Part shown: piece after piece, positions 20,364 through 28,614 of the stretch
Layout of the letters: each line of letters opens with the position of its first letter
Numbering within the stretch: position 1 is the stretch's first letter
Assembly: GCA_020428105.1 (NCBI GenBank)
Contig: JAGQNK010000014.1
Span: forward strand, 1 to 32,418
DNA: 32,418 nt
Source: Candidatus Saccharimonadota bacterium
GTDB lineage: Bacteria; Patescibacteriota; Saccharimonadia; Saccharimonadales; JAGQNK01
Direction of reading: 5' to 3'
The notes under the pieces: generated by a model
Told to the model about the DNA's origin: nothing
Databases searched by the model: none
What the model saw: the letters and a program-made list of their open reading frames with translations, nothing else
Translations under genes and position numbers: made by a program

Positions 20364-20439
20364 GCCACCTTAGCTCAGTTGGTAGAGCGACGCATTCGTA
20401 ACGCGTAGGTCGCCGGTTCAATCCCGGCAGGTGGCTCCA
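20364..20439 (+). tRNA. tRNA-Thr(CGT)
   Basis: The acceptor GCCACCT/AGGTGGC is perfectly paired and the anticodon loop is TTCGTAA (anticodon CGT, reads ACG). The T arm GCCGG/CCGGC has loop TTCAATC, the discriminator is T, and CCA is encoded. The last anticodon-stem pair is an A-C mismatch (A31, C39). The U discriminator is complementary to the variable base of the T-box-like bulge upstream of thrS. Confidence 0.94.
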
Positions 20440-23381: not shown

Positions 23382-24467
23382 ATGAGTGAGTATTTTGATT
23401 TACTTTCTGAGTTTCACGGCGCAAGGGCCGGAGTGCTGAAAACACGTGCAGGTGATGTTCATACCCCAACTTTTATGCCAGATGGCACAAGAGGTGCTGT
23501 GAAAGGATTAACTCCGGAAATGGTACGGTCAACAGGGGTGCAAGCAGTTTTGGCCAATACCTATCATTTGCACTTGCAACCTGGAGAGGACACGGTTGCA
23601 GTTCTTGGTGGATTGCACGAATTTACAAAGCAGGTTCTGCCGCTATTAACAGACTCCGGTGGTTTTCAGGTTTTTTCACTAGCCCATATAAATAAGATTA
23701 CCGAAGATGGTGTACACTTCAAGGATCCAAAAACCGGCGATACTGTATTTTTGTCACCAGAAAAATCGATACAAATACAAATGAAGCTTGGTGCTGATAT
23801 CATGGTAGCTTTTGATGACGTAACAGCATTGGACGATAAGGGACGAACTCGCACCAGAGAAGCATTTGATCGAACGCATCGTTGGCTCGCGCGTTCGTTG
23901 TCGGAATTCCAGAGACTCACTAAAGGTATGGATCTCGGGGAACGACCTCTGTTATTTGGTGTTGTTCAAGGTGGTTTGGATAAGGAATTACGAAAGCAGA
24001 GCTTGGAGATTGTTCAAAGCTTACCGGTTGATGGTATTGCCATCGGCGGTTTGTCAGTTGGAGAATCGAGAGAAGAAATGCATGGTATGCTGGGGTATCT
24101 AGCTGATCACTATGATAGTTCACCTAGACCCAGATTTTTGCTCGGAGTTGGTGATCCGATTGATTTACGATTTGCGATACAACATGGCATCGACATGCTG
24201 GACTGCGTGTTGCCGACTCGTAACGCCAGGCATGCAACAGCATGGGTCGCGGGTGATGAGAAGATACATCTTACAAACGCAAAATTTATTGCAGACAGAG
24301 ATGTCATAGATCCAGGTTGTGATTGTACGACGTGTAATTTTGGTTATAGCAAGGGGTTTTTGCGCCACCAGTTTAAGGTAAATGAACCATTAGCAGGTAC
24401 ACTAGTATCGATCCACAATATACGATACTTACAGCGTATCTGTGAAGAGTATCGAAAAGAGAATTGA
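23382..24467 (+). CDS. tgt: tRNA-guanine transglycosylase (queuine tRNA-ribosyltransferase)
   Basis: Tgt exchanges guanine 34 of GUN-anticodon tRNAs (such as tRNA-Asp(GTC) in this window) for preQ1 or queuine. The 361-residue TIM barrel shows LLTDSGGFQVFSL, the substrate loop LFGVVQGG and GIAIGGLSVGE, and LLGVGDPIDL. The nucleophile Asp is in DMLDCVLPTRNARH, and the zinc site is CDCTTC plus RHQF. All catalytic features appear intact. No queuosine biosynthesis genes lie nearby, so preQ1 or queuine may be salvaged. The stop is TGA. Confidence 0.95.
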   Translation: MSEYFDLLSEFHGARAGVLKTRAGDVHTPTFMPDGTRGAVKGLTPEMVRSTGVQAVLANTYHLHLQPGEDTVAVLGGLHEFTKQVLPLLTDSGGFQVFSLAHINKITEDGVHFKDPKTGDTVFLSPEKSIQIQMKLGADIMVAFDDVTALDDKGRTRTREAFDRTHRWLARSLSEFQRLTKGMDLGERPLLFGVVQGGLDKELRKQSLEIVQSLPVDGIAIGGLSVGESREEMHGMLGYLADHYDSSPRPRFLLGVGDPIDLRFAIQHGIDMLDCVLPTRNARHATAWVAGDEKIHLTNAKFIADRDVIDPGCDCTTCNFGYSKGFLRHQFKVNEPLAGTLVSIHNIRYLQRICEEYRKEN

Positions 24468-24994: not shown

Positions 24995-25030
24995 ATGACA
25001 ATACAAAAATACTAGCACTATACTGCTAGT
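24995..25030 (+). promoter_or_regulatory. Promoter and overlapping inverted repeat for the structured RNA
   Basis: ATGACA (24995-25000), 18 bases, then TATACT (25019-25024), predicting initiation near 25031. The -10 sits inside an inverted repeat, ACTAGCA, six bases, TGCTAGT (25011-25030), which is ideally placed for a repressor. Confidence 0.55.
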
Positions 25031-25148
25031 ATGCTAAGATAGGAGTACTGATTTGCTTGGAGGCGAATCAGTAAGGCGAAGTTTTGCCGAGGTGTTTTAG
25101 CGAAAAGTGATTGAAGACAGTGCGAGAGCCTTCAATCACTTTTTATAT
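25031..25148 (+). ncRNA. Structured RNA with three-way junction and terminator (riboswitch-like or sRNA)
   Basis: The predicted transcript begins two bases before a closing helix, GCTAAGATA (25033-25041) with TGTTTTAGC (25093-25101). Inside it are a ten-base hairpin, ACTGATTTGC/GCGAATCAGT (25047-25056, 25063-25072, loop TTGGAG), and a five-base hairpin at 25075-25088. Junction strands are purine-rich: GGAGT, AA and GAGG. One base later a 14-bp intrinsic terminator begins. The layout is that of an aptamer plus expression platform 17 bp before a SemiSWEET-like gene, or of a stand-alone sRNA. I cannot match it to a known riboswitch class. Confidence 0.65.
25103..25147 (+). terminator. Strong intrinsic terminator
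   Basis: AAAAGTGATTGAAG (25103-25116) and CTTCAATCACTTTT (25130-25143) are perfectly complementary over 14 bases with a 13-base loop, and the 3' arm ends in a T run. Confidence 0.9.
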
Positions 25149-25164: not shown

Positions 25165-25431
25165 ATGCATATTCTTGATATAGCTACGATAGTTGCTCTC
25201 ATGGCGCTAAACATTGATATATTTCTACAAAATCAGAAGGTGTATCGACGGAAATCTTCAAAGGATATATCTCTACCAGGCTTATCGGTAAGATATATCG
25301 CAATATTTATCATACTCACAAAATACGTGGCTATTAATGACAAGGTATTGGTTTTTGGGCAGTCGTTAATAGCGCTTAATGTTATGGTCTACATCGTACT
25401 TGTTTATAGATATCGTAGGTCTAGTGTTTGA
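25165..25431 (+). CDS. SemiSWEET / PQ-loop-like small membrane protein
   Basis: An 88-residue protein with three membrane helices (about residues 3-20, 42-58 and 62-82), the size and topology of a SemiSWEET protomer. Helix 1 ends in IFLQNQKVYRRKSSKDISLPG, where Q-N-Q takes the place of the P-Q motif and KSSKDISL is typical of the loop. SemiSWEETs dimerise and move small solutes such as sugars; the substrate here is unknown and the Pro of the PQ motif is replaced. It directly follows the structured RNA and its terminator and precedes the thrS leader. Confidence 0.75.
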   Translation: MHILDIATIVALMALNIDIFLQNQKVYRRKSSKDISLPGLSVRYIAIFIILTKYVAINDKVLVFGQSLIALNVMVYIVLVYRYRRSSV

Positions 25432-25456
25432 TATCTGATTCAAACAGAGGTATATT
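25428..25456 (+). promoter_or_regulatory. Sigma70 promoter of the thrS leader
   Basis: TTGATA (25428-25433), 17 bases, then TATATT (25451-25456). Predicted initiation is near 25463, giving a leader of about 180 bases. Confidence 0.6.
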
Positions 25457-25462
25457 AGTGTG

Positions 25463-25622
25463 TAAGCGATGACGTGGATTCACCAACTACCGAGCTTCGT
25501 AGGCGACGCAACAGAGGTACGATAACCAATGGTGCACGAGTAAAAGATTTCGGTGGAACCGTCTTGGGCTGCCCAGGACCCGAAACGCGTAAGATATTGA
25601 GTATTCATATCGAACGCGTTTT
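25463..25622 (+). promoter_or_regulatory. T-box-like leader RNA upstream of thrS
   Basis: The T-box signature is an antiterminator with two helices around the bulge UGGNACC, which pairs with the tRNA NCCA end. Here helix A1 is CGG (25551-25553) with CCG (25580-25582), the bulge is TGGAACC (25554-25560), and helix A2 is GTCTTGGG (25561-25568) with CCCAGGAC (25572-25579). The variable base is A, which pairs with the U discriminator of tRNA-Thr in this window. A specifier stem cannot be assigned with certainty: GCG/CGC (25466, 25507) enclose two small hairpins, and Thr codons occur at 25472 (ACG), 25482 and 25489 (ACC). The region before the bulge is short for a classical Stem I. Confidence 0.7.
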
Positions 25623-25630
25623 ATTATTTA
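25582..25630 (+). terminator. Terminator in the thrS leader
   Basis: AAACGCGT (25583-25590) pairs with ACGCGTTT (25614-25621), and GATAT/ATATC form an inner stem. TTATTATTT follows. It would end transcription when tRNA-Thr is charged. It overlaps the antiterminator by one base only, so the switching mechanism is not obvious. Confidence 0.65.
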
Positions 25631-25643
25631 TAAGGAGAAAAAT

Positions 25644-27497
25644 ATGAGCCAACCCGATGACCAACTATACGCAATGAGACACAGCCTTGCACATATTACC
25701 GCCACAGCGGTTCAGCATTTATGGCCAGAAGCAAAGTTTGGCATAGGCCCAGTGGTGGAGAATGGGTTTTATTACGATATTGATTTGGGCGATACGACTA
25801 TTTCCGAGGCTGACTTTGAGCGTATTGAGGCGGAGATGCACAAGATTATTGAGGCAGGTGAACAGTTTGACAGATTTGAGCTTCCAATAGACCAAGCGAT
25901 TGATTGGGCAAAACAAACAAATCAGCCCTACAAACGGGAGTTATTAAACGACCTTAAACGAGCTGGAACAACTGTTGCCAAAGATTTAGATAAAGACGAG
26001 CTAGGTACGATTGCCGAAGGAGATGCTGCAACAGAAAAGGTGTCGTTTTATAAAAACGGCGACTTTACCGATCTATGTAGAGGGCCTCATGTAGAGTCGA
26101 CCAGTAAAGTAGGTGCATTTAAGCTTATGCGAGTGGCGGGAGCTTACTGGCGTGGCAAAGAGGACAACCCACAGATGCAAAGGCTTTACGGCGTAGCATT
26201 TGCGACCGAGAAGGAACTGCGTCAGCACTTGAATATGCTGGAAGAAGCCAAAAAGCGTGACCACCGCAAGCTAGGGCAGGAGCTGGATTTGTTCTCGTTC
26301 TCTGATCTGGTTGGTCCAGGACTTCCGCTTTACTCACCCAGGGGCGCGATACTAATAGAAGAGCTCAAGAACGCTCTAAAGGATATTAGTCGTCGATACA
26401 ATATGCAGCAGGTTTCCATACCTCATCTTGCGAAGTTAGATTTATATAAGATATCTGGTCACGCAGATAAGTTTGAGGATGAGCTATTTCGAGTAAAGAG
26501 TCACTATCAACAAGAATTTATCTTGAAGCCAGTAAATTGTCCTCACCATACGCAGATTTTTGCATCTCGGCCTAGAAGTTATCGGGATATGCCCTTACGT
26601 TATGTCGAGCAGACTATGCAGTATAGGGATGAAAAGCCTGGTGCTATAGGTGGCTTGCAGCGTACTAGAGGTTTCACCGTTGACGATGGACATACTTTTT
26701 GTCGAGTAGATCAGATAGAGGATGAGGCTTCAATGATTGCAGAAATCATACAGGAGTTTTATGAGAACGTTGGCCTCTGGGGTCAGCACTGGGTATCCTT
26801 GTCGGTTCGCGATCCAAGGAGTCCAGAGAAGTACATCGGTGAGCCGAAGGACTGGGATGAAGCAGAGATAATGCTTAAAACGGTTTCTGATAAGTACGGA
26901 CTTGATGCTAAGCGTATGGAGGGTGAAGCGGCACTGTATGGACCAAAGTTGGACTTCATGTTTAGGGATGCATTGGGTCGTGAGACACAGCTTGCTACTA
27001 TTCAACTGGACTTTGCGATGCCTAAGGGCTTCGGTCTGATCTATACCGACGAAGAAGGACAAGAAGCTACACCAGTAATGATTCATAGGGCTATCCTTGG
27101 GTCATTCGAGCGGTTCATAATGCTACTTATTGAGCATTTTGCAGGTAAATTCCCGGTGTGGTTAGCTCCAGAGCAAATTAGGGTTATTTCTGTTAATCAA
27201 GAAGAGCCCATAGTAGAATTCGCTAATGGGATTGTAGAGCAGGCAAAAGAGTTAGGCCTACGCATCTCTGTAGACAATGACAATGAGTCTGTTAGCAAAA
27301 AAATTCGAAATGCTGAGATATGGAAGATTCCATATACCATTGTTGTTGGCGAAAAAGAAATTGTTAGTGGTGAAGTGGTGCCACGTGTTAGGGGGGATTT
27401 GGAAGTTCAAAAGTCTCATCAAGCGCACAAAGTTGGAGATTTCTTGCGGACCGTTGCTAATGAGGCAAAGTCTCGCGTTGTAAAAACCTCATTATGA
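25644..27497 (+). CDS. thrS: Threonine-tRNA ligase without TGS domain
   Basis: ThrRS attaches Thr to tRNA-Thr and edits Ser-tRNA. The start is fixed by AAGGAG (25632-25637) before ATG. The protein (617 residues) begins directly at the editing domain: H13 and H17 of HSLAH, later LCRGPHVES. The N-terminal TGS domain present in most bacterial ThrRS (about 60 residues) is missing. The class II core has zinc ligands in VNCPHH, DDGHTFC and the His in VMIHRAILG. Motif 2 is around YRDEKPGAIGGLQRTRGF and motif 3 is GSFERFIMLL. The C-terminal anticodon-binding domain runs from about 520 (APEQIRVISV). The last four bases overlap the next gene (ATGA). Confidence 0.96.
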   Translation: MSQPDDQLYAMRHSLAHITATAVQHLWPEAKFGIGPVVENGFYYDIDLGDTTISEADFERIEAEMHKIIEAGEQFDRFELPIDQAIDWAKQTNQPYKRELLNDLKRAGTTVAKDLDKDELGTIAEGDAATEKVSFYKNGDFTDLCRGPHVESTSKVGAFKLMRVAGAYWRGKEDNPQMQRLYGVAFATEKELRQHLNMLEEAKKRDHRKLGQELDLFSFSDLVGPGLPLYSPRGAILIEELKNALKDISRRYNMQQVSIPHLAKLDLYKISGHADKFEDELFRVKSHYQQEFILKPVNCPHHTQIFASRPRSYRDMPLRYVEQTMQYRDEKPGAIGGLQRTRGFTVDDGHTFCRVDQIEDEASMIAEIIQEFYENVGLWGQHWVSLSVRDPRSPEKYIGEPKDWDEAEIMLKTVSDKYGLDAKRMEGEAALYGPKLDFMFRDALGRETQLATIQLDFAMPKGFGLIYTDEEGQEATPVMIHRAILGSFERFIMLLIEHFAGKFPVWLAPEQIRVISVNQEEPIVEFANGIVEQAKELGLRISVDNDNESVSKKIRNAEIWKIPYTIVVGEKEIVSGEVVPRVRGDLEVQKSHQAHKVGDFLRTVANEAKSRVVKTSL

Positions 27498-27823
27498 AGC
27501 TAGATATCCCACAAATAGGAGGTGGTTTTAGGGAGCGGGTTGAGGCGATTGTTGTACAAATTCCAGAAGGTCGGGTTATGACATACGGGCAGCTTGCTGC
27601 TCTATGTGGAAGCCCCAGAGCGGCAAGGATTGTTGGCGGGATCGCTCATTTCGGAGATCCAAAATTGCCGTGGCATAGAGTTGTCAAAAAAGATGGAAGT
27701 TTGGCTGAGGGTTATCCTGGGGGTATGCCAGGACATCGCCGGGCTCTTGAGGCGGACGGTGTGTTATTTGGTAATTCAGATAAAGTTAATGTAGAGAGTC
27801 TATTATGGCACCCGGTGGACTGA
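27494..27823 (+). CDS. Alkyltransferase-like (ATL) DNA-binding protein
   Basis: A 109-residue homologue of the C-terminal domain of O6-alkylguanine-DNA alkyltransferase. The active-site PCHRV is replaced by PWHRV (residues 59-63), so the alkyl-accepting Cys is lost; this Trp form is typical of ATL proteins, which bind O6-alkylguanine and hand it to nucleotide excision repair. The helix-turn-helix and flipping-Arg region (GSPRAARIVGGIAHF) and the GYPGGMPGHRR stretch are intact. It lies in an ATGA overlap with thrS and overlaps miaA by 19 bp, so it is translated as part of that operon. Confidence 0.9.
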   Translation: MKLDIPQIGGGFRERVEAIVVQIPEGRVMTYGQLAALCGSPRAARIVGGIAHFGDPKLPWHRVVKKDGSLAEGYPGGMPGHRRALEADGVLFGNSDKVNVESLLWHPVD

Positions 27824-28614
27824 TATCCATAGTAGGCCCAACTGCCAGCGGAAAGACGGCCCTAGCTATTCGGGTTGCAGAAGAGTTATCTGGTGAAATT
27901 ATCTGTGCAGATAGCCGGACTGTATACAAAGGGTTAGATATCGCCACGGCAAAACCGAGTAGAGATGAGCGCAATAGGGTACCCCATCATGCGTTAGATG
28001 TAGTGACACCAGATGAGCCGTTTACTGTTGCCGACTTCAAGCAACTAGCCGACAAGGCAATCAAGGATATCCAAGACAGGGGTAAAATACCTATTTTGGT
28101 AGGAGGCAGTGGTTTGTATATCGATGCGGTTTTGTTTAATTATAGTTTTTCTCCTCATGGTTCCAAGCGTGATTTAGTAAATACGCGACATGTAGACAAG
28201 GCATCACAGGGTAGCAGACAAGAAGTGCGCAGAGATACTTTGATTATTGGTCTTAGGATCTCAAGGGAAGTGCTTAGGCTACGGATAGAAGAACGAATCC
28301 AGAATATGATTGAGTCAGGGTTGAACGATGAAGTGCGTTGGCTAATGACAAATTATCCAAATAGTAAAGCGTTAGACTCACCAGGTTACAAAGCATTTTA
28401 TCGATATATAACCGGGGAGATTAATCTCGAAGATGCGACTATTTTATTCACTCGCAACGATTTTAGCCTAGCCAAGCGTCAGATGACATGGTTTAAGCGA
28501 AATAAGCACATTCAGTGGTTCGATGATGCTAATGATGCCTTTGCGTCAGTGACAAAAAGCTTTATAGACAGCAAGAAAATGGGCAAGAACAATGCCATCA
28601 TTACCAAGCCATAG
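27805..28614 (+). CDS. miaA: tRNA dimethylallyltransferase MiaA
   Basis: MiaA adds the dimethylallyl group to A37 of tRNAs reading UNN codons. The P-loop is GPTASGKT (11-18), followed by ICADSRTVYKGLDIATAKPS, where the DS-x-x-Y motif contacts the tRNA and substrate, then PHHALDVV, ILVGGSGLYIDAV and KRQMTWFKRN near the C-terminus. At 269 residues it is short (typically about 300), with parts of the swinging helical domain reduced. Its last 103 bp overlap the end of the convergent MFS gene. The operon thrS-atl-miaA combines translation and DNA-damage recognition. Confidence 0.94.
   Translation: MAPGGLISIVGPTASGKTALAIRVAEELSGEIICADSRTVYKGLDIATAKPSRDERNRVPHHALDVVTPDEPFTVADFKQLADKAIKDIQDRGKIPILVGGSGLYIDAVLFNYSFSPHGSKRDLVNTRHVDKASQGSRQEVRRDTLIIGLRISREVLRLRIEERIQNMIESGLNDEVRWLMTNYPNSKALDSPGYKAFYRYITGEINLEDATILFTRNDFSLAKRQMTWFKRNKHIQWFDDANDAFASVTKSFIDSKKMGKNNAIITKP

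Follow-up and report, generated by a model that had tools for sequence, protein, structure and literature searches.

The window analysed here, a contig of 32,418 nt from a 910-kb genome that is 99.6% complete (contig C35 of genome G000), carries a thrS gene preceded by a leader that a preliminary description took for a T-box, possibly of a minimal or divergent class. Most descriptions of T-boxes come from Firmicutes and Actinobacteria. The locus raises the question of whether the leader is a T-box at all and, if it is, how it relates to the known classes. The sequence argues, with a probability of roughly 0.9, that the leader (25465 to about 25629) represents a compact transcription-antitermination T-box riboswitch for tRNA-Thr. 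The evidence consists of a conserved anatomy (the bulge, a K-turn pattern, a pseudoknot and, in a subset of relatives, the Stem III purine motif), covariation, a Thr specifier, matching discriminators, the overlap of the terminator with the antiterminator, the association with thrS and the existence of similar leaders of other specificities. The features are collected in Table 1.

Table 1. Features of the thrS leader and its surroundings (positions in the window)
Feature	Position	Strand	Details
tRNA-Thr(CGU), U73	20364..20439	+	discriminator fits; anticodon cannot read ACC
Queuine tRNA-ribosyltransferase gene	23382-24467		upstream of thrS (Pfam)
Small-RNA-like element	25005-25145		conserved
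88-aa ORF	25165-25431		no Pfam match
-10-like promoter box TATATT	25451..25456	+	box common to most leaders
K-turn pattern and Stem I	25465..25496	+	AGC 25465-25467/GCU 25494-25496, GA.GA tandem
Stem I, 4 bp	25474-25477/25487-25490	+	9-nt apical loop 25478-25486; covariation
Specifier ACC (Thr), then A25485	25482..25484	+	Thr codon kept in leaders
IIA/B-like pseudoknot	25497..25535	+	UCGU 25497-25500 with ACGA 25519-25522
Pseudoknot hairpin	25508-25513/25530-25535 and 25516-25518/25525-25527	+	covariation
Purine string GAGUAAAAG	25538..25546	+	relatives have RRRNG-Stem III-AA here (alignment)
Antiterminator	25548..25585	+	A1 25548-25553/25580-25585, A2 25561-25568/25572-25579; covariation and fold
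T-box bulge UGGAACC	25554..25560	+	UGGA complementary to tRNA-Thr UCCA
Intrinsic terminator GAAACGCGU/ACGCGUUUU, then U-rich tract	25582..25629	+	4-nt overlap with A1 3' strand
thrS, threonine--tRNA ligase	25644..27497	+	TIGR00418 599.7 bits, cut-off 383.65; Pfam domains
IPP transferase gene	27494-28614		downstream of thrS (Pfam)

Architecture of the leader

Leaders for comparison were gathered via relatives of the ThrRS; those whose records carry a name belong largely to Candidatus Saccharibacteria. TGGAAC(C/A) is present in 67 of the 103 leaders that were inspected; 56 of the leaders were delimited in full and 32 compact ones were aligned. The RNA before the bulge is about 88 nt long, as had been described, and Stem I, which had been expected to be very reduced, has 4–5 bp across the leaders, with a loop of mostly 9 nt. 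In 42 of 55 leaders a -10-like box precedes the element by 7–10 nt (with a TG extension in 37 of the 55), and its mean score is 5.9, compared with 4.3 in shuffles. The position of this box at the 5' end of the element implies that there is little or no RNA upstream, and hence that Stem I is truly short.

The pattern AGC-NNU-GA ... GA-GCU, whose flanking stems covary, points at the level of sequence to a K-turn. In the 32 aligned leaders the K-turn and Stem I helices are paired in 100% and 87% of the cells, respectively, with double changes at all eight pairs. Of the 56 leaders, 49 present ACC in the Stem I loop, 6 present ACU and 1 presents ACG, without exception a Thr codon followed by A.

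The 57–91 nt that separate Stem I from the bulge are taken up by the pseudoknot, the purine string and an optional Stem III. Helices 3–5, which make up the pseudoknot region, are 75–88% paired and show double changes at 11 of 13 pairs (32 leaders). The arrangement RRRNG-Stem III-AA, known from T-box discriminators (PMC7583486), is present where Stem III is clear (12 leaders by script, more by eye); most leaders, including that of the window, have only the purine string in place of Stem III. Three thrS leaders (L151, L159 and L161, in G636, G584 and G530) are smaller, at 85–110 nt, and are seemingly devoid of the pseudoknot.

The A of UGGA had been matched to the U discriminator of the tRNA-Thr encoded nearby. 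This tRNA does have U73, but its CGU anticodon cannot read ACC. The tRNA-Thr that can (GGU) is encoded on contig C5 and also has U73; this base, which matches UGGA, is shared by the three tRNA-Thr genes that were read from the genome (UGU, GGU and CGU).

Covariation and the proposed antiterminator/terminator switch

The T-box reading had been staked on covariation of the two antiterminator helices and on conservation of the bulge in related thrS leaders, in which a conserved Thr codon was also to be sought. In the alignment both helices covary (A1 and A2 are paired in 80% and 90% of the cells of the 32 leaders). In the 56 delimited leaders the Thr codon is kept, and the bulge is TGGAACC in 49 and TGGAACA in 7, with UGGAAC invariant. 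The variant UGGAACA is that of L025, L036, L043, L044, L063, L066 and L091. For the whole aligned fold, pseudoknot included, 85.1% of the cells are paired, against 32–40% in slid controls, and double-sided changes occur at 26 of the 33 pairs; the covariation score of 0.41 (0.19 in shuffles) was matched by none of 500 shuffles. RNAalifold alone recovers Stem I and A2, and neither the pseudoknot nor the adopted A1 register, so the structure tested against these controls is one set by hand.

The bulge and the 8-bp A2 helix are as originally described, but the helix on the other side, given as 3 bp, is in fact a 6-bp A1 (UUUCGG/CCGAAA). The placing of a terminator and then thrS 3' of the bulge also holds, with the TIGR00418 gene starting at 25644. 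The antiterminator and terminator had been thought to have a single base in common; this is wrong, as the terminator takes four of the six nucleotides of the A1 3' strand. It starts at the same position of that strand in 40 of 54 leaders, with an overlap of 4–5 nt, and the two structures are mutually exclusive, as in T-boxes. In four leaders (L008, L011, L012 and L013) Stem III and its loop, upstream of A1, contain the 5' strand of the terminator, and the terminator encloses the antiterminator; here Stem III and the terminator would be the mutually exclusive pair.

Folding of the window's leader, which had been proposed as a check, gives a single-sequence z of -2.9. For its 3' part the energies of the antiterminator and terminator states are nearly equal (-28.0 and -29.8 kcal/mol), a balance expected of a switch that tRNA could tip. 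In the minimum-energy fold of the window's leader A1 and UGG pair with the 3' strand of Stem I; as a conserved anti-antiterminator this pairing was rejected, its 5.8 bp being little more than the 4.9 bp of shuffles.

By analogy with the known T-box mechanism, the leader would bind tRNA-Thr, sense its charging and control termination. Transcription would begin just 5' of the K-turn, and the GGU anticodon of tRNA-Thr would read the Thr codon ACC displayed by the apical loop of the 4-bp Stem I. With uncharged tRNA, the terminal UCCA would pair with UGGA of the bulge and hold the A1/A2 antiterminator, denying the terminator the A1 3' strand, and thrS would be transcribed. The 3' end of charged tRNA-Thr could not engage; the slightly more stable terminator would then form and transcription would stop.

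Some features count against this reading. The uridine at the base of A2, which forms a G-U pair and is described as a conserved amino-acid sensor of T-boxes (PMC7583486), is found in none of the 32 aligned leaders at the corresponding position (column 133, on the 3' side of the foot of A2). Moreover, when the antiterminator state is forced, a shortened terminator stem can persist beside the U-tract. Both features would be accounted for if the leader were a T-box relic or an altered T-box, binding tRNA-Thr without reading its charging or acting through an output other than termination; the ileS T-box of the same genome does have G-U at the base of A2. We nevertheless regard this explanation as improbable: UGGA and, where Stem III exists, RRRNG-Stem III-AA, both of which meet the 3' end of the tRNA, are conserved, and the overlap with the terminator is constant.

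Relation to the known T-box classes

The Rfam T-box covariance model (RF00230) gives no match to the thrS leader, either at the gathering threshold or at E<=10, a result that counts against a T-box and that also fits the earlier suggestion of a divergent one. The matches to freshwater-2 and snoRNA families obtained at the locus at E<=10 are weak and were judged to be due to chance. Of the general features of T-boxes, the leader has a UGGNACC-type bulge between A1 and A2, agreement of its N with the discriminator, a specifier in Stem I, a K-turn pattern and a terminator exclusive with the antiterminator, but it lacks the A2-base uridine.

Among the known forms, the class III T-boxes of Nocardia farcinica and Mycobacterium ileS (PMC10482949, PMC7583486) likewise have a short Stem I without IDTM, a specifier in the apical loop, a K-turn, a IIA/B-type pseudoknot and the UGGN bulge. 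The thrS leader differs from them in that it precedes thrS rather than ileS, has a loop of mostly 9 nt instead of 5–6, has no U at the A2 base and, judged from secondary structure only, has no S-turn Stem II. It is also transcriptional, whereas class III control is translational: an intrinsic terminator lies 5' of the Shine-Dalgarno sequence. With class I (RF00230) it shares the K-turn, specifier, pseudoknot, A1-bulge-A2 antiterminator and terminator and, in the leaders with a clear Stem III, the Stem III motif, but it lacks a long Stem I, and an IDTM would not fit. The class II glycine T-box (glyQS) is similarly transcriptional and without Stem II, but has a long Stem I with the IDTM, in contrast with the 4–5 bp Stem I and pseudoknot of the thrS leader.

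The architecture, without a long Stem I, an S-turn Stem II or the usual A2-base uridine, has no exact match among the published classes I–IV (PMC10482949). In the absence of S-turn Stem II and long Stem I, tRNA binding would rest on fewer of the known contacts, which again counts against a T-box. We consider the chances evenly balanced that the leader represents a further T-box class, a transcriptional switch of Patescibacteria dedicated to thrS, with a K-turn, a 4–5 bp Stem I and a pseudoknot, and without the elbow-binding IDTM, the S-turn Stem II and the A2-base uridine. If so, this RNA would hold the tRNA and sense its charging by means unlike those of the solved T-boxes. The small thrS form tests which T-box parts are required for tRNA capture and the readout of charging.

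A search of open-access papers found none on T-boxes of Saccharibacteria or Patescibacteria, although such papers may exist elsewhere. For TBDB, the translational-class model was run on Actinobacteria genomes and on those truncated sequences that the class I model had picked up beforehand (PMC7778990).

Distribution and leaders of other specificity

A covariance model (R1) was built from the leaders, that of the window among them, and applied within Patescibacteria. It has matches in 123 of 295 genomes of the order and in 76 of 143 genera. Strong matches are single-copy, and the top ones (about 25, checked by hand) lie directly upstream of thrS; a few matches are placed one small gene further upstream. 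In L049, L084 and L086 (G029, G058 and G057) another gene, acetyltransferase-like by eye in the latter two, precedes thrS, and the T-box is about 0.6–0.9 kb upstream of thrS. The other classes of Patescibacteria, absent from the training set, also have R1 matches (67 of 380 genomes in all), before thrS in most of the loci read. Several R1 matches overlap sub-threshold RF00230 matches (G066, G308, G345, G457, G475 and G528). Of 287 Patescibacteria genomes, 9 have an RF00230 match over the cut-off and 99 have one at E<=0.1.

The genome of the window has a second T-box-like leader (C9:18381-18557, minus strand; L185), a sub-threshold RF00230 match of 39.9 bits, located before an inositol monophosphatase-like gene (by eye) followed by ileS. 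Its Stem I, GUGG-CUAUCAA-CCAC, displays, as read by eye, the Ile codon AUC, and a UGGUACC bulge and a terminator follow. It resembles the thrS leader in the 4-bp Stem I, apical-loop specifier, K-turn-like base, UGGN bulge and terminator, and differs in an extra purine-rich region that by eye resembles S-turn Stem II and in the G-U at the A2 base.

With specifiers read by eye from Stem I-like hairpins, further T-box-like leaders are found before ileS (AUC/UGGU; G055, G105, G088 and G499), aspS (GAC/UGGC; G341), glyS (GGA or GGC/UGGA, compact; L192 in G403:C7 and L193 in G532:C1) and hisG (CAC/UGGG; L189 in G051:C5, a genome of the Saccharibacteria order). The discriminators that were read fit: U73 for tRNA-Thr (G000, G341 and G403) and for tRNA-Gly (G403, fitting the UGGA of glyS), C73 for tRNA-His (G000, G341 and G403), G73 for tRNA-Asp (G000 and G403) and A73 for tRNA-Ile (G341). 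The four UGGN variants all occur, each where the T-box rule would place it, and specifier, UGGN and gene agree.

Patescibacteria with genomes of about 1 Mb commonly have T-box-type leaders, which precede aminoacyl-tRNA synthetase genes and a histidine gene, the thrS form being present in more than 40% of the sampled relatives. Ultra-small bacteria would thus often possess, in stripped-down form, a type of control otherwise known chiefly from Gram-positive bacteria. This suggests that individual synthetases are still under starvation control in these dependent bacteria, and that the Rfam model undercounts T-boxes.

The related leaders before ileS, aspS, glyS and hisG also speak against the proposal that ThrRS itself binds the leader and represses thrS, as at the E. 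coli thrS operator, which mimics the anticodon arm of tRNA-Thr. The position of the leader directly before thrS in most genomes would suit such an operator, but the loop contains a Thr codon, not an anticodon, and neither the UGGN bulge nor the terminator overlap would have a role; we find this very unlikely. Ribosome-mediated attenuation via a Thr-rich leader peptide is scarcely credible and was rejected: an 18-codon frame does open at ATG 25469 in the window's leader, but the frame is not conserved, its start codon is not kept consistently, a stop falls within 7 codons in about a third of the 32 aligned frames, the longest leader ORFs contain only about 9% Thr, and the specifier does not lie in the ATG 25469 frame.

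Around the T-box and thrS, the queuine tRNA-ribosyltransferase and IPP transferase genes both concern tRNA modification, and a protein with an alkyltransferase DNA-binding domain is encoded between them. The 88-aa ORF is hydrophobic and, by eye only, PQ-loop-like. The small-RNA-like element, whose Rfam matches are at chance level only, recurs 5' of thrS in many Saccharibacteria that have no T-box; it consists of CTAGC/CTAGT repeats, a -10-like box, GGYGAAGUUUUG and then a hairpin whose loop is UGCGAGA, with a U-tract.
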